A DNA stretch of 64,000 nt, taken from NCBI RefSeq assembly GCF_014138285.1, contig NZ_JACGXN010000001.1, forward strand, positions 795,314 to 859,313. The letters are read 5' to 3'. The stretch is from Phyllobacterium myrsinacearum. Its GTDB lineage: Bacteria > Pseudomonadota > Alphaproteobacteria > Rhizobiales > Rhizobiaceae. Of the stretch, positions 6,248 through 55,177 are shown one piece after another. The notes beneath the pieces are model-generated. The model was given only the letters and a program-made list of their open reading frames with translations, made no database searches and was not told the DNA's origin. Each line of letters begins with the position of its first letter. The first letter of the stretch is position 1. The position numbers were made by a program, and so were the translations under genes.

Positions 6248-7960
6248 ATGCCCGCTAAAATCTCCCGTTCGGCCTATGCCCGCATGTTTGGCCCCACGAC
6301 CGGTGACAAGGTGCGGCTCGCCGATACAGAACTGTTTATTGAGGTGGAAAAGGATTTCACCATCTATGGTGAAGAGGTGAAGTTCGGCGGCGGCAAGGTC
6401 ATACGCGACGGCATGGGTCAGAGTCAGGTTGCCCGTGCTGATGGGGCTGTCGACACGGTCATCACCAACGCCCTGATCGTTGATCATACGGGTATCTACA
6501 AAGCGGATGTCGGGCTTAAGGATGGTCTGATTGCTGCGATTGGCAAAGCGGGTAATCCCGACACGCAGCCGGGCGTCACCATCATCATTGGTCCGGGCAC
6601 GGAAATCATCGCCAGCGAGGGCAAGATTCTCACAGCCGGCGGCATGGATGCGCATATCCACTTCATCTGCCCGCAACAGATCGATGAGGCGCTGATGTCC
6701 GGTGTCACCACCATGTTCGGTGGTGGTACGGGTCCCGCACACGGCACACTAGCAACGACTTGCACGCCAGGCCCATGGCATCTGGCCCGAATGATCCAGG
6801 CCTTTGATTCCATTCCCATGAACCTCGGTCTATCCGGCAAGGGCAATACCTCACGGCCAAAAGCGTTGGAGGAGATGATCCTTGGCGGCGCATGCTCGCT
6901 GAAACTGCACGAGGATTGGGGCACCACTCCGGCGGCCATCGACAATTGCCTCACCGTTGCCGATCAGTTCGACGTGCAGGTGATGATCCATACGGATACG
7001 CTCAACGAGAGCGGGTTTGTCGAAGACACGGTTGCAGCCTTCAAGGGGCGCACAATTCATGCCTTTCATACGGAGGGTGCGGGCGGTGGTCACGCCCCGG
7101 ATATTATCAAGATCTGCGGTCTGCCGAATGTGATTCCGTCCTCGACAAACCCGACGCGACCTTACACCAAGAACACTATTGCCGAGCATCTCGACATGCT
7201 GATGGTCTGCCATCATCTGTCATCATCTATTCCTGAAGACGTTGCGTTCGCCGAAAGCCGCATCCGCAAGGAAACGATTGCGGCAGAAGATATCCTGCAC
7301 GATATCGGCGCCTTTTCGATCATCTCGTCGGACAGCCAGGCGATGGGCCGCGTCGGCGAAGTTTTGATTCGGACATGGCAGACAGCCGATAAAATGAAAC
7401 GCCAACGCGGCAGCCTGCCGCAGGAAACCGGCGACAACGATAATTTCCGCGTGAAACGTTATATTGCCAAATATACGATTAATCCGGCGATTGCGCAGGG
7501 CGTATCAAAACATATCGGTTCGATTGAAGTGGGCAAACGCGCGGATCTCGTGCTGTGGAACCCAGCCTTCTTCGGTGTGAAACCCGACATGGTCCTGCTG
7601 GGCGGTTCGATTGCCGCTGCGCCGATGGGCGATCCCAATGCATCCATTCCGACACCGCAGCCCGTGCACTACCGCCCCATGTTCGGCACATTCGGCAAAA
7701 ATGTCAGCAATTCCTCCGTTGTCTTTGTCAGCAAGGCATCGATTGAGGCAGGTCTTCGCCAGTCTCTCGGGACGGACAAGCAATTGATCGGCGTCGAGAA
7801 CACCCGCGGCGGTATTTCGAAAGCATCGATGATCCACAACGACGCCACGCCGCATGTGGAAGTTGATCCTGAAACCTACGAAGTGCGCGCTGATGGCGAA
7901 CTTCTGACATGCGAACCGGCGACGGTGCTGCCCATGGCGCAGCGCTACTTCCTGTTCTGA
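6248..7960 (+). CDS. ureC: Urease subunit alpha (catalytic)
   Basis: This 570-residue subunit carries the dinickel active site. All ligands are present at family positions: His136 and His138 in [11 protein letters not shown], the lysine to be carbamylated at 219 in [12 protein letters not shown], His248 in [11 protein letters not shown], His274 in [14 protein letters not shown], and Asp362 in SSDSQAMGR. The catalytic His322 lies in MVCHHL, preceded by the flap Cys321. Numbering runs two ahead of Klebsiella UreC. I chose 6248 rather than an in-frame start at 6209 because it gives the conserved [17 protein letters not shown] start and has AAGAGGGAACC upstream. It should be fully active once matured. 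Confidence 0.98.
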
Positions 7961-11866: not shown

Positions 11867-12004
11867 CTCTTTGGCCTCGATTGTAGAGGCGCGATAGCTC
11901 AATGAACGGCCTCTTCACATCTCGTTAACGACTCGGGCCACCAAGAAGTTCCCTCAGCATTCTCAAGAGGTCGTGATAGGGGATTGATTAATTGAACGCT
12001 CTTA

Positions 12005-12046
12005 TGCTGCATTGCACCAGACGCAATGCTGCTATGCAATATTATC
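12005..12046 (+). promoter_or_regulatory. Tandem 22-nt-spaced TGCTGC-NATGCA sites upstream of the sRNA
   Basis: Two copies of the motif start at 12005 (TGCTGCATTGCA) and 12027 (TGCTGCTATGCA), exactly 22 bases apart, or two helical turns. The same pair with the same spacing is found upstream of the DUF1127 gene at 15777. The second copies match at 19 of 23 bases over 12024-12046 versus 15796-15818. They lie about 60 bases upstream of the likely sRNA start, a typical position for an activator. TATTCT at 12071-12076 is a possible -10; no good -35 is visible, which suits an activated promoter. Confidence 0.65.
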
Positions 12047-12083
12047 TATATTAAATCAGGCCAATGGAGTTATTCTTAGATCA

Positions 12084-12206
12084 GGAATTTTCGACAGCGT
12101 CACCTCCTCCCGGCACTGTCGAAACGGTTGGCCTCTTCTCCTCCCAGAAGGCCTTCCATAACCAACGAAACCCACCGCACCTCCTCCCGCGGTGGGTTTT
12201 GTTGTT
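12084..12206 (+). ncRNA. alpha-r14 / NfeR1-like small RNA with three anti-Shine-Dalgarno hairpins
   Basis: Three consecutive hairpins each expose CUCCUCCC. Hairpin 1 pairs TCGACAG (12091-12097) with CTGTCGA (12116-12122) and carries CCTCCTCCC in its loop. Hairpin 2 pairs GGCCT (12130-12134) with AGGCC (12149-12153) and carries CTCCTCCC. Hairpin 3 pairs AAACCCACCGC (12168-12178) with GCGGTGGGTTT (12189-12199), carries CCTCCTCCC and ends in TTTTGTTGTTT, an intrinsic terminator. This architecture is that of the rhizobial alpha-r14 family (NfeR1 in Sinorhizobium), a trans-acting sRNA that pairs with ribosome binding sites of many mRNAs and affects osmoadaptation and nodulation. The 5' end is estimated from a -10-like TATTCT and the known length near 120 nt. 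Confidence 0.85.
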
Positions 12207-12331
12207 TCAGGCCCTCCCAGACCACGAATTAAGCTGCGACTCCAAACAAACACACCGCTCCAAGCATCATTTGCATTGGAACGGTGTTCTAATAACGATC
12301 AGGCTTGGGAGCCCGATCCCGGTTATATTGT

Positions 12332-12556
12332 TTACTGGACTGTGTTTTGAGCACCCGGTGTTTCCGGAATCTTTGACGGAACAGCCTTCTGTGTCAAAGA
12401 TTTGGGTGGTGGAACAAAATGCGTGTCTTTCGCCGGCGACAGGGCGCCAGCTTCCGATTTTGGACTGCTGTTTTTGCTCGTGCTTGTGCTCGTACTCGTG
12501 TTGCAGGCCGCAAGAGCCAGAAGGGATAACACAGCCAAGGGTAATGCAATGCGCAT
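12332..12556 (-). CDS. Small lipoprotein
   Basis: The product is 74 residues. It starts MRIALPLAVLSLLALAACNT, a textbook lipoprotein signal with lipobox LAAC, so Cys18 should be lipidated. The rest is low complexity: a Ser/Thr repeat (STSTSTS), then a Pro/Lys-rich tail with HFVPPPKSL. The frame is open to 12592, but AAGGAACG lies just before the ATG at 12556, which fixes the start there. No family is recognised. Small proteins like this often sit in the outer membrane and are under-annotated. Confidence 0.7.
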   Translation of the reverse strand: MRIALPLAVLSLLALAACNTSTSTSTSKNSSPKSEAGALSPAKDTHFVPPPKSLTQKAVPSKIPETPGAQNTVQ

Positions 12557-12691
12557 TCGACGTTCCTTCGTTTTCATATGAGAGCCGCCCAAGCGACACT
12601 TAAGACAATCGCATGCGGTTGACCACCCAATCGTGGCGATTACGCGTCAAATAAAGCACGCGCCCCGCCCTTGAAAACCAAACAAGGCTCT

Positions 12692-13948
12692 CTAACGGAC
12701 AAGGATCGCCCTGAGATCATTGACATTGGTTCCGGTTGGTCCGGGCACATAGAGGTCATCGATGGTGTTGAACGCTGACCAGGCATCGTTGCCATTGAGA
12801 TAGGCCGATGCGTCAAGCCCCTTTTCCAGCAATCGCGCTATGGTGCTGCCGTCGGCAAACGCACCGGCATTGTCCTCCGAGCCATCAATACCGTCGGTAT
12901 CGGCGGCAAAGGCACTGAGACCGTCATATCCGTCAATATCGATAGCCAATGAGAGCAGGAACTCGCTGTTTCGCCCGCCCCTACCTTTTCCACGGACGGT
13001 CACCGTTGTCTCGCCGCCTGAAAGGATGACGACCGGCTTGGTGAAAGGCTGGTTCTTGTTCAGAACCTGCTTGGCCAAGGCCGAATGCACGTGCGCCACT
13101 TCGCGCGCCTCGCCTTCGATCGCATCGGAAAGCACGACGGCTTCAATGCCAAGCGCGCGCGCGGCCTTGGCCGACGCCTCCAGGGAAACAGCAGCCGAGG
13201 CGATGACCCGGTGCTCATGGGTTGCGAATTTCGTATCCGATGGCTTTGGAGCATCGGCAGCAGTTGATTGCAGATGCTTCAAAGCGGCAGCCGGCAGATC
13301 GAGATTATAGCGTTCCACGATCCGCAAGGCGTCCTCACGGGTTGTTTCGTCGGCGACCGTCGGACCGGACGCGACGAAAGCAGGATTGTCGCCAGGTATG
13401 TCGGAGACGATCAGTGAAAACACCCGCGCAGGATGAGCCGCCGCGGCAAGTCTTCCACCCTTGATGGTCGAGAGGTGTTTGCGAACCGCATTCATCGCCG
13501 AAATTGGTGCTCCCGAGGCAAGCAGCGCCTTGTTGACGGCGATCTCGTCTTCCAGCGTCATGCCGTCAGGTGGTGACGGCAAAAGGGCCGAGCCACCGCC
13601 GGAAATCAGTGCAACCACCAGATCGTCTTCAGTCAGACCCGAGACCGTCTCAAGCAGGCGTTTGGAGGCAATCAAGCCAGCCGCGTCCGGCACAGGGTGC
13701 GACGCTTCGATAATCTCGATCCGCTCGCATGGCGCCCCAAAACCATAGCGGGTGACGACAACTCCTTCCAGCGGGCCATCCCAGGCCTTTTCAAAGGCGC
13801 TTGCCATTTGCGCAGACCCTTTGCCTGCGCCAATCACAATGGTGCGGCCCCTGGGTTTTTCCGGGAGATGGGCGGCGATTGTGCGTTCGGGATCGGCAGC
13901 TTCAACAGCGGCCTGAAAGAGTTTTACGAAAAATTCCTTGTCCTGCAT
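12692..13948 (-). CDS. gckA: Glycerate 2-kinase (MOFRL family)
   Basis: This 418-residue enzyme phosphorylates glycerate to 2-phosphoglycerate; members were formerly named hydroxypyruvate reductase TtuD. The N-terminal domain has TIVIGAGKGSAQMASAFE and VALISGGGSALLPSPPDGMT. Further on are MNAVRKHLSTIKGGRLA and SDIPGDNPAFVASGP. The C-terminal MOFRL-type part has VVILSGGETTVTVRGKGRGG, then RNSEFLLSLAIDIDG and AADTDGIDGSEDNAGAF. The start at 13948 is four bases after the stop of the Dabb gene, so the two are coupled. It probably feeds C2/C3 acids from serine, glyoxylate or tartrate breakdown into glycolysis. Confidence 0.93.
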   Translation of the reverse strand: MQDKEFFVKLFQAAVEAADPERTIAAHLPEKPRGRTIVIGAGKGSAQMASAFEKAWDGPLEGVVVTRYGFGAPCERIEIIEASHPVPDAAGLIASKRLLETVSGLTEDDLVVALISGGGSALLPSPPDGMTLEDEIAVNKALLASGAPISAMNAVRKHLSTIKGGRLAAAAHPARVFSLIVSDIPGDNPAFVASGPTVADETTREDALRIVERYNLDLPAAALKHLQSTAADAPKPSDTKFATHEHRVIASAAVSLEASAKAARALGIEAVVLSDAIEGEAREVAHVHSALAKQVLNKNQPFTKPVVILSGGETTVTVRGKGRGGRNSEFLLSLAIDIDGYDGLSAFAADTDGIDGSEDNAGAFADGSTIARLLEKGLDASAYLNGNDAWSAFNTIDDLYVPGPTGTNVNDLRAILVR

Positions 13949-13952
13949 TACG

Positions 13953-14279
13953 TCACATATCCAGATCAAAAACAAAAACACCCTCAACACCCGCCACGGC
14001 AGCGGCAACGATACGTCCGCCGATAGTTCTGTGCTGCGTATCATCAAGATAGGTATCCCGGGCACCGGCATCGGCGAAATCGATGATGAACCCCTCCGAA
14101 TAACCCTTGTCCATTCCCACTTCCGGACTCACATTTTTACGCGCGTGAAAAGACAGAACACCGGGCAGTTTCCCGCACAACACTTCAAGATCCTTATATA
14201 TTTCCTGACGGGCAGCAGCGGCGATGTCGTCGCGAAAACGAATGAAAACACAATGGCGTATCACGGAGGCGGCTTTCAT
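13953..14279 (-). CDS. Dabb (stress-responsive alpha/beta barrel) protein
   Basis: The product is 108 residues starting MKAASVIRHCVFIRFRDDIA. The pattern IRHCVFIRF..., a helix with Leu/Val spacing, then GYSEGFIIDFADAGARDTYL and a final strand VFVFDLDM is the Dabb dimeric alpha/beta barrel fold (PF07876). The family includes stress proteins and small enzymes such as olivetolic acid cyclase, so function is open. It lies between an amidase and a glycerate kinase in one apparent operon, which hints at a catabolic or substrate-binding role. The open frame reaches 14342, but 14279 gives the usual family N-terminus. Confidence 0.85.
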   Translation of the reverse strand: MKAASVIRHCVFIRFRDDIAAAARQEIYKDLEVLCGKLPGVLSFHARKNVSPEVGMDKGYSEGFIIDFADAGARDTYLDDTQHRTIGGRIVAAAVAGVEGVFVFDLDM

Positions 14280-14396
14280 TGTTTGTACAGGCTCAATCAC
14301 TTCGGGAAAGAGTTGGCCAAGATTGGATCGGTCGCAGCGCATCCTGACGAGATTACCGGAAATTGCGAGCGTTAATTCTGCTTCTCCCGAAATATC

Positions 14397-15722
14397 CTAG
14401 GTCAGCAATCGCTCAACAGAAAGCGTCATCGACAGAAGCTGCCGATCCGCTCCATGCCGGGCAAACAACATGAGACCACCCGGCAACGCCAGATCAGGCA
14501 TGGGGAGACTGATCGCGGTCAGATCGAACTGATTGGCTATCTGCGGATTGCGCAGCAGCAGCCCTTCCGTCCGCTTGTAGAACTCATCATCGTTGACAAC
14601 GGAGGCAATGGGCGGGGCTGTGATGGGCGACGTTGGCAATGCAAGAAGGTCAAAGGCCGTCATGCGCTGATCCATTTTGTGCACCAGCGCCTGCCGCTGT
14701 TGTATCAGATCAATGTATGCAGCTTCGGAGACCCCCAGACGGCGCAGCAGGGGCCTTTGCACCCGTGGATCGACATCCAGTCCTGTGTCATTGAGCCAGC
14801 CCGCATGAACACGGCTGCCCTCTATCCCCGCGATCGATCCAATGGATGTCGCCTCTGCCATTTCATGGATCAGGTCATCCAGCATAAAGTCGACCAGAAC
14901 GGCACCGGCCTTTTCACAAAGCCTCAGGCTTGTTTCAAAGGCAGCGGCAATGGCGGGTTCCATTGCATCGAGAACACTGCCTCGCGGCATGGCAATACGG
15001 ATGCCAGTCAGGGAAACGGGCTCCGCGAACGCCATTCTCTCACCCGCCATGACGGCGTCGGCAATCGCACAATCGGCAACCGAGCGGGCCAGGGGACCAA
15101 TGGAATCAAGGCTTGGCGACAGCGGAAACGCGCCCTGCAAGGGCACTCTTTTTGCCGTCGGTTTAAAGCCGACAACGCCATTGAGCGCGGCCGGTATGCG
15201 GATGGAGCCGCCCGTGTCCGAACCGATCGAAATTTCGCTCGTGCCGTCCGCCACGGAAACACCGGCGCCGGTCGAAGAACCACCCGCGACACGGCCGGGA
15301 TCGACGGCATTACCGGCAATTGAATAATGCGGATTGAGCCCTACGGCCGTAAAAGCAAATTCGGTCATGAGGGTCTTGCCAATGACAACGGCACCGGCAT
15401 TGCGCAGACGTTCGACAATGACCGCATCCTTGACCGCCGCCGGTGCGCTGCTACGCACTACTGACCCGGCGAGCGTTGGCTCTCCAGTCACATCAAACAG
15501 ATCCTTGATAGAAACGATCTTGCCATCCAGCGGTCCCAGCAAATTGCCATCCTGTGCGCGCTGGTCTGAGGCATCAGCCTCCTTGCATGCGGTATCGGCA
15601 TAGAGTTTGACGAACACGGGCCCATCCCGCGCCGCAATGGCTGCAAGGCTTTGCTCCAATTTGTCACGCGCGGATCCTGTTGACCGGGACAACGGTATCT
15701 CCTCAAAACGTATGAATTGCAT
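14397..15722 (-). CDS. Amidase (amidase signature family)
   Basis: This 441-residue hydrolase of the amidase signature superfamily has the Ser-cisSer-Lys triad: the lysine in KIVSIKDLFDVTGEPT near residue 75, and the serines in AGGSSTGAGVSVADG and IGSDTGGSIRIPAALNG around 150-175. It probably hydrolyses a small amide, allophanate or an aryl/acyl amide; the substrate is not readable. It lies upstream of the Dabb and glycerate kinase genes on the same strand (117-base gap). The start is uncertain: the ATG at 15722 has no ribosome binding site, whereas a TTG at 15692 is preceded by GAGGAGATACCG. Confidence 0.9.
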   Translation of the reverse strand: MQFIRFEEIPLSRSTGSARDKLEQSLAAIAARDGPVFVKLYADTACKEADASDQRAQDGNLLGPLDGKIVSIKDLFDVTGEPTLAGSVVRSSAPAAVKDAVIVERLRNAGAVVIGKTLMTEFAFTAVGLNPHYSIAGNAVDPGRVAGGSSTGAGVSVADGTSEISIGSDTGGSIRIPAALNGVVGFKPTAKRVPLQGAFPLSPSLDSIGPLARSVADCAIADAVMAGERMAFAEPVSLTGIRIAMPRGSVLDAMEPAIAAAFETSLRLCEKAGAVLVDFMLDDLIHEMAEATSIGSIAGIEGSRVHAGWLNDTGLDVDPRVQRPLLRRLGVSEAAYIDLIQQRQALVHKMDQRMTAFDLLALPTSPITAPPIASVVNDDEFYKRTEGLLLRNPQIANQFDLTAISLPMPDLALPGGLMLFARHGADRQLLSMTLSVERLLT

Positions 15723-15776
15723 TTCTATAGCGCCGCGCGCCGAAAAATCAAAAGCGCGGCTCCGGAAGGAGAATTA

Positions 15777-15820
15777 TGTTGCCATGCAACATACTCATTG
15801 CTGCCATGCAACATTAGCAA
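15777..15820 (+). promoter_or_regulatory. Tandem 22-nt-spaced TGYTGCCATGCAAC sites upstream of DUF1127 gene
   Basis: TGTTGCCATGCAACAT starts at 15777 and TGCTGCCATGCAACAT at 15799, spaced 22 bases. They match the pair upstream of the sRNA at 12005. The pair lies 69 to 112 bases before the DUF1127 ATG, with a -10-like TATTTC at 15847. In Brucella the LysR regulator VtlR activates an AbcR-type sRNA together with small DUF1127 genes, and LsrB is its relative in rhizobia. A regulator of that type is the natural suspect here, but this is inference. Confidence 0.65.
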
Positions 15821-15888
15821 TTTTCATGAAGGCAAACTCACCGCACTATTTCATCGGGAGGGTCATCATAAATAAGGGGAATACCAAA

Positions 15889-54983: not shown

Positions 54984-55074
54984 GTCGACCGCCGAAACCT
55001 CACACAATTTCACAAAAGCTTTAGCGCCTCACCCGATTGACGCAAGCCGCCAAGAGGATTAAAGCACTTTTATC

Positions 55075-55131
55075 CCGTGGTGATTTGGCCGGCCGGCTTG
55101 CAGCCACGTTAAATAATTTGCTAAAAGAGGC
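55075..55131 (+). promoter_or_regulatory. SAM-II riboswitch (metA motif) in the metZ leader
   Basis: CGTGG (55076-55080) pairs with CCACG (55104-55108) to form P1. The loop starts TGATTT and contains TTGCA, and the 3' part is TTAAATAATTTGCTAAAAGAGG, all conserved in the SAM-II class (TGATTT...TTGCA...TAAAT...GCTAAA). SAM-II aptamers form an H-type pseudoknot and occur upstream of methionine genes in alphaproteobacteria. The ATG of metZ follows 78 bases after the end of the aptamer. Confidence 0.9.
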
Positions 55132-55177
55132 CCGGTCTCGTCCGGCCTTTTTGCGATTCCCGCAAGGCCGGTTTTTT
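55129..55177 (+). terminator. Antiterminator/terminator pair downstream of the SAM-II aptamer
   Basis: CCGGCC (55142-55147) can pair with GGCCGG (55166-55171), with TTGCG/CGCAA inside the loop, followed by TTTTTT (55172-55177): an intrinsic terminator. The same CCGGCC can instead pair with GGCCCGG (55129-55135), making an antiterminator that starts at the last bases of the aptamer. The two are exclusive. SAM binding would be expected to favour the terminator and switch metZ off. Confidence 0.75.

Follow-up and report, generated by a model that had tools for sequence, protein, structure and literature searches.

Matching tandem boxes of probable LsrB/VtlR type upstream of an ar14 small RNA and a DUF1127 gene in Phyllobacterium myrsinacearum

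Two promoters 3.7 kb apart in Phyllobacterium myrsinacearum, one belonging to a small RNA (sRNA) of the ar14 family and the other to a gene for a DUF1127 small protein, carry a similar tandem motif; do they answer to one regulator, and if so to which? Both lie in a 64,000-nucleotide (nt) stretch of the 5.97-Mb genome (the window; G000:C1:795314-859313, where G000 labels the genome and C1, C3, C7 and so on its contigs). The initial annotation had proposed one regulator of the LsrB/VtlR class for both. On the evidence of a published 15-mer, a matrix of AbcR promoters, loci in other genera and a reciprocal search, this is the best-supported reading, with two amendments: a short half of the motif is unspecific on its own and also precedes polyhydroxybutyrate (PHB) and ketone-body genes, and the two genes are unlikely to be unrelated targets, being near neighbours in other genera in a way that suggests a split cluster. 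We consider it likely that the LsrB/VtlR orthologue of this genome would bind the tandem boxes and activate both promoters, and that the pair represents an ancestral module that has been split. The genes themselves are what they had been taken for: the sRNA, described as NfeR1-like, scored 78.4 bits against ar14 (gathering score 58.8), the Rfam family of NfeR1, with a computed fold of -55.8 kcal/mol (z -7.4) whose hairpins bear the three CUCCUCCC anti-Shine-Dalgarno loops, and the small gene scored 43.8 bits against the DUF1127 profile (cut-off 23.3) and has a close homologue, at least 81% identical, in 19 other genomes of the genus.

The four motif copies start where they had been placed, at 12005 and 12027 upstream of the sRNA and at 15777 and 15799 upstream of the DUF1127 gene, with a spacing of 22 nt in each promoter. 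Between promoters, the second copies agree at 19 of 23 bases on recount, as claimed, and the first copies at 16 of 23. Within promoters, the copies agree at 18 of 23 bases at the DUF1127 gene and at 14 of 23 at the sRNA, so the description 'near-identical' is apt for the former pair and overstated for the latter. Aligned in the same register over 44 bp, the two promoters have 34 bases in common; no pair of 44-mers from the 300-nt regions ahead of the two genes matches better, and dinucleotide shuffles reached at most 28 (0/1000 reached 34). At the sRNA the boxes span 43-85 bp before the ar14 start, at the DUF1127 gene 74-116 bp before the start codon, and the ar14 model begins 43 nt downstream of its core box; a simple scan of 11900-12300 found no sigma-70 consensus promoter near the sRNA.

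Likeness to published sites indicates that these are probably LsrB/VtlR boxes. The VtlR motif, the 15-mer CAATGCAGCCATGCA (PMC12595884), has its two best matches on both strands of the window at 12024 and 15796, each at 13/15 positions (two mismatches), and the next match has three mismatches. With up to two mismatches, the whole genome holds 29 matches against four for the reversed control, and five of these fall in promoters discussed here, namely those of the window pair, of AbcR (C8:43795), of a DUF1127-ar14 unit on C15 and of a transporter gene on C7. The element TGCA-N6-GCAT, described in the NfeR1 promoter of Sinorhizobium meliloti (PMC10746234), is exact in 10/20 Phyllobacterium ar14 promoters and differs at one base (GCAA) in the window, and the LsrB/VtlR box GCAT-N3-TG-N3-T (PMC7486931, PMC8844928) is present with one mismatch in each window promoter. 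In S. meliloti, the ar14 sRNA NfeR1 is reported to be bound and activated by LsrB (PMC10746234), which answers for that species a point that the initial annotation had left open, namely whether this class of regulator acts on an ar14 sRNA. The precedent it had invoked, joint activation of an sRNA and DUF1127 genes, likewise holds, as VtlR is reported to regulate AbcR2 and three DUF1127 genes positively (PMC12595884); VtlR is also reported to bind the promoters of abcR1, atu1667 and vrsA (PMC7486931).

Conservation within Phyllobacterium singles out the same boxes. An ar14 sRNA and a close DUF1127 homologue lie on one strand, 3.4-3.8 kb apart, in 20/20 genomes of the genus, and in alignments of the upstream regions of all 20 the tandem box stands out most clearly as a conserved island amid diverged sequence; TGC triplets are spaced 22 nt apart in 40/40 promoters, and TGCTGCTATGCAATATT in the ar14 core box is identical in 19/20 genomes. 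A 51-column tandem model was built from these 40 sites (both promoters in 20 genomes), and its searches scored 150 candidates per genome. It recovers both promoters in 20/20 genus genomes, these being its training sites, and in P. myrsinacearum its only strong matches are again two training sites, at 52.8 and 48.4 bits, with the next at 16.2 (150 of 3536 candidates scored). The concern that the motif might recur at random is thus borne out for the short 14-mer TGCNATGCAAYATT, which is not specific because it matches 255 genome sites with up to two mismatches against 58 for the reversed pattern, but not for the full tandem.

A genome-wide scan had been suggested as a way of finding other DUF1127 and sRNA genes behind the motif. 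In P. myrsinacearum the tandem model yielded only the window pair as strong matches among the candidates scored, and in the genus it reached further promoters: in a reciprocal test, the window-trained model was run over 34 genomes (E <= 0.01), and 72 of its rows fall in the 20 genus genomes, 40 of them the training pair and 32 others. Most of the latter (25/32) stand at other DUF1127-ar14 or ar15/AbcR promoters, 15 of them at a DUF1127-ar14 promoter of the type found on C9 and one at the C15 type (both assigned by position), and nine at ar15/AbcR loci, of which five were confirmed by Rfam and four by position inside lsrB loci. The remaining seven rows comprise one promoter of a major facilitator superfamily (MFS) transporter, five TGC-rich tandems and one unexplained site.

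The comparison was also made in the other direction, from AbcR promoters, an established class of LsrB targets, to the window. Among 80 lsrB loci, 58 gave an AbcR promoter site chosen by the published consensus; the matrix took 45 sites from loci L241-L306, 37 of them distinct, and includes three Phyllobacterium-named records whose LsrB is 84-85% identical. Over about 128,000 window positions, this 37-site matrix placed 15773 (DUF1127) first with 16.26 and 12001 (ar14) second with 14.03, ahead of a third match at 11.95, and its matches at the two promoters are in register. When 18 Brucella-side sites were used, the two again ranked first and second, with scores of 21.4 (DUF1127) and 18.0 (ar14) and the next at 10.0. 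The best 37-site match lies on the sense strand of both promoters in 20/20 genus genomes (sRNA 12.7-31.5, DUF1127 8.4-23.8).

Further copies in P. myrsinacearum extend the association. The genome has five ar14 and twelve DUF1127 matches, three of the latter being the window, C9 and C15 genes. On C9 and C15, ar14 begins about 10-15 nt from the DUF1127 stop codon, forming intact units, and each of these promoters has a conserved box in its own and 19 genus sequences; the C3 ar14 has one in its own and 19/20 stretches from 16 genomes, one stretch lacking a match. The 37-site matrix gave 15.6 for C9, 14.1 for C15 (opposite strand) and 7.7 for the C3 ar14. Two very similar DUF1127 genes (G000:C3:324924 and C10:112692) have GCATAGGTGGAAT upstream, an exact GCAT-N3-TG-N3-T, with matrix scores of 6.4 and 9.1; at the other seven DUF1127 loci no score with this matrix exceeded 6.6. 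The fifth ar14 (G000:C1:754802-755482, L225) immediately follows a phasin gene on its 3' side, has a TGC-rich site upstream and is possibly derived from the phasin mRNA; the phasin is found in 13/14 relatives' stretches at this locus, where the 37-site matrix stays below 3.4. An LsrB-type box scoring 21.9 also stands about 60 nt upstream of the C7 MFS transporter gene (Pfam 164 bits; box at G000:C7:157-202, L189), with a like site at G007:C1:2098052 (L324), and this transporter is a predicted LsrB target.

Beyond the genus, 20 loci from 15 genera were searched with the 37-site matrix, and matches were compared with a near zone 20-160 nt upstream of the ar14 or DUF1127 match start, which covers 16% of positions. 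At a cut of 14, 15 matches (14 separate boxes) fell in the near zone and none outside (binomial p 1.8e-12 for near-zone enrichment, positions not being independent); at a cut of 10, there were 25 inside and 4 outside, with 15/20 loci having one. The enrichment appears with all four training sets at this cut (25/4, 20/3, 7/0 and 17/2 inside/outside). In S. meliloti, the ar14 on pSymA (89.9 bits) has a window-type box in the same place with a score of 17.7.

In four genomes from four genera (G022, G030, G032 and G033), the protein most like the window DUF1127 is encoded only 229-349 nt 3' of ar14, and boxes score 21.5 and 19.2 in G022, 16.3 and 10.2 in G030, 15.8 at DUF1127 and 8.3 on the opposite strand at ar14 in G033, and 10.1 at DUF1127 in G032. 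Because of this proximity, we infer that the window pair may be a compact DUF1127-ar14 cluster pulled 3.7 kb apart by the minus-strand genes that now separate the two. A tandem arrangement is seen in G041 (L145, C130:30300-33600), where there are four DUF1127 units, three of which precede an ar14 match that falls short of the Rfam cut-off; an LsrB-type box stands at every unit of this array (20.8, 18.9, 17.9 and 14.7).

The candidate regulator is present. The LsrB orthologue, a 298-amino-acid LysR-type protein encoded outside the window, has as neighbours an ar15 (AbcR) sRNA and a pyridine-nucleotide-disulphide-oxidoreductase C-terminus, and its only cysteines, 142 and 271, align with chain positions 144 and 273 of Agrobacterium LsrB (PDB 9HH1, 482 bits). 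It is 100% identical to the copy of Phyllobacterium sp. OV277 and 97-99% identical to those at 13 further loci, of which 12 bear the label Phyllobacterium. One record titled Bacillus subtilis (L266, JAHREI010000004.1) encodes an LsrB with 80% identity to the query, as Pseudochrobactrum does, and is probably misnamed or contaminated. In the mechanism that we propose, this protein would bind as a tetramer over the two boxes, which are 22 bp or two helical turns apart, and would activate the ar14 and DUF1127 promoters jointly; both genes would stem from one ancestral DUF1127-ar14 module (a 'CIN1' or cuckoo locus) whose split kept a box at each gene. A redox input to LsrB may be expected from its relatives (PMC11975290).

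Several results weigh against LsrB/VtlR control of the pair and temper the ranking given above. The order shifts with the choice of training sites: once the three Phyllobacterium-named records are left out (34 sites), the DUF1127 promoter ranks first and ar14 fourth, and with 19 sites from the Mesorhizobium/Aminobacter/Aquamicrobium side the pair is not recovered (ranks 27 and 124). In the genus, 20/20 sRNA promoters but only 13/20 DUF1127 promoters exceed the background maximum of the window with 37 sites, and 16/20 and 8/20, respectively, do so with 34. When the AbcR sites were made into a covariance model, the window pair again took ranks 1 and 2, with weak scores of 7.2 and 7.0 bits (E 0.38 and 0.45), and in a search of the genome with the AbcR model the pair was not among the matches listed (150 of 2196 candidates scored). 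The exact 22-nt ATGC spacing occurs in only 7/37 AbcR sites; GCAT-N3-TG-N3-T is exact in neither window promoter and, in the genus, in 11/20 sRNA and 4/20 DUF1127 promoters. Half of the other-genera loci (10/20) have no match of at least 14, and 22/80 lsrB loci gave no AbcR site, the sites being chosen by the published consensus.

The alternative that best survives is control of both promoters by PhaR. This polyhydroxybutyrate regulator is encoded in the genome (C1:1805042), and the tandems that it binds are TGC-rich or of the form GC-N3-GC (PMC10888616). Short-motif matches precede genes for 3-hydroxybutyrate dehydrogenase, for acetoacetate decarboxylase, where two copies stand 21 nt apart, and for phasin as well as ppdK and xylF, one lies 271 nt from citrate synthase, and the fifth ar14 has its phasin neighbour; where this short half-motif precedes PHB and ketone-body genes, it is probably a PhaR site. 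With the 37-site AbcR matrix, however, the phasin and hydroxybutyrate-dehydrogenase loci score below 4 and the decarboxylase 5.5, while the window pair reaches 16.3 and 14.0; this comparison is one-sided in using the AbcR matrix only. The left part of the window motif, GCA(A/T)TGCTGC, is VtlR-like, and a pull-down with the S. meliloti nfeR1 promoter recovered LsrB and NtrC (PMC10746234). We prefer LsrB because the PHB and ketone-body sites score low; PhaR as the sole regulator was downgraded on the same ground and is unlikely.

The two proteins might instead share the site, with PhaR on the upstream copy through a TGCATTGCA / TGCAATGCA core and LsrB on the downstream copy, so that carbon storage and redox signals would be integrated. 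At the window sRNA and at the C9 promoter, the upstream copy bears the TGCAATGCA core on either strand, as at PHB genes, but that of the window DUF1127 promoter lacks it, and the 22-nt TGC register throughout the genus fits one tetrameric regulator, which leaves a shared site quite improbable. Mere promoter duplication, a similarity by common descent (conceivable where DUF1127 and ar14 are neighbours) that implies no present co-regulation, is very improbable, given that the boxes are conserved islands within diverged upstream regions in 20/20 genomes and that a similar box recurs at AbcR genes. Separately, TGCTGCAATGCAAC-type tandems occur in five genomes (L316-L319 and L323), at four loci beside an FtsK-like open reading frame as judged by eye, and are probably PhaR-type.

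Set against known systems, the proposed LsrB/VtlR control of both genes combines familiar parts. It resembles LsrB-NfeR1 of S. meliloti, a system that also involves repression by NtrC, in having an LsrB-type box upstream of the core promoter of an ar14 sRNA, and a DNA search of plasmid records showed the window promoter to be close to that of the pSymA ar14 copy. As in the Brucella VtlR regulon, one LysR regulator would activate an sRNA and DUF1127 genes through the same 15-mer (13/15), although the sRNA published for Brucella is AbcR2 rather than ar14 (PMC12595884). Agrobacterium VtlR/LsrB, with its targets abcR1, atu1667 and vrsA, belongs to the same regulator class and recognizes the GCAT-N3-TG-N3-T box, but the bound promoters described in the text consulted do not include that of ar14 (PMC7486931). 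The ccaF1-CcsR1-4 (CIN1/cuckoo) locus of Rhodobacter sphaeroides likewise joins a DUF1127 gene to CcsR-type sRNAs, as do the intact units on C9 and C15, but its promoter is described as RpoHI/RpoHII-dependent, whereas the window has LsrB-type boxes and a separated pair without the CIN1/ccaF-CcsR-type adjacency. The LsrB-NfeR1, VtlR-DUF1127 and DUF1127-CcsR links have thus each been published; joint LsrB control of ar14/NfeR1 and DUF1127 was not found in the open-licence papers searched. Such control, if true, would unite redox control by LsrB/VtlR, riboregulation by NfeR1/ar14 and the DUF1127/CcaF small proteins in a single circuit shared by several genera of the order, with the two window promoters as concrete places to test it.

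A broader idea, which we regard as possible rather than probable, is that LsrB/VtlR is the dedicated ancient regulator of DUF1127-ar14 (cuckoo) modules across Hyphomicrobiales, whether intact, tandem or split, each with its own LsrB box replacing the RpoH promoter of Rhodobacter. After the split in Phyllobacterium, the DUF1127 leader would have gained a GGGAGG element pairing with the co-induced ar14, creating a feed-forward loop in trans. The element is present in 20/20 genus genomes and in 0/24 leader stretches of other genera. A GGGAGG-ar14 duplex was rejected as a supported pairing; we retain it as a prediction only, since its energy is not significant, 42/300 shuffled leaders being equally good.

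Table 1 Features of the ar14 and DUF1127 promoters and of the DNA between them (window coordinates).
Feature	Position	Strand	Basis or remark
Copy 1, upstream LsrB-type half-box of the ar14 promoter	12001..12021	+	22 nt upstream of copy 2; kept in 20/20 genus genomes
Copy 2, core LsrB/VtlR-type box of the ar14 promoter, GCAATGCTGCTATGCAATATT	12023..12043	+	VtlR 15-mer match, AbcR matrix, conservation
ar14 (NfeR1/cuckoo-type) sRNA, three CUCCUCCC loops and terminal hairpin	12086..12204	+	Rfam RF02344, fold
Separating genes: MOFRL/DUF4147 (glycerate-kinase type), Dabb, amidase	12692..15722	-	Pfam
Copy 1, upstream LsrB-type half-box of the DUF1127 promoter	15773..15793	+	22-nt register; conserved in genus
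Copy 2, core LsrB/VtlR-type box of the DUF1127 promoter, TCATTGCTGCCATGCAACATT	15795..15815	+	VtlR 15-mer match, AbcR matrix
GGGAGG element of the DUF1127 leader, separate from the Shine-Dalgarno sequence	15856..15861	+	Complementary to the ar14 CCUCCC loops
DUF1127 small protein, 47 amino acids	15889..16032	+	Pfam PF06568

The genes that separate the pair are themselves conserved, the MOFRL/DUF4147, Dabb and amidase genes being found in the same stretch in 19/19, 18/19 and 19/19 genus relatives, respectively. The DUF1127 and amidase genes diverge, and the DUF1127 box (window 15722-15815) lies between them, so that its regulator could act on the amidase gene too. Elsewhere, the window contains a match to the Rfam family 5_ureB_sRNA at 6400-6689 on the minus strand (138.7 bits) and an alphaproteobacterial S-adenosylmethionine (SAM) riboswitch at 55067-55146 on the plus strand (78.7 bits).

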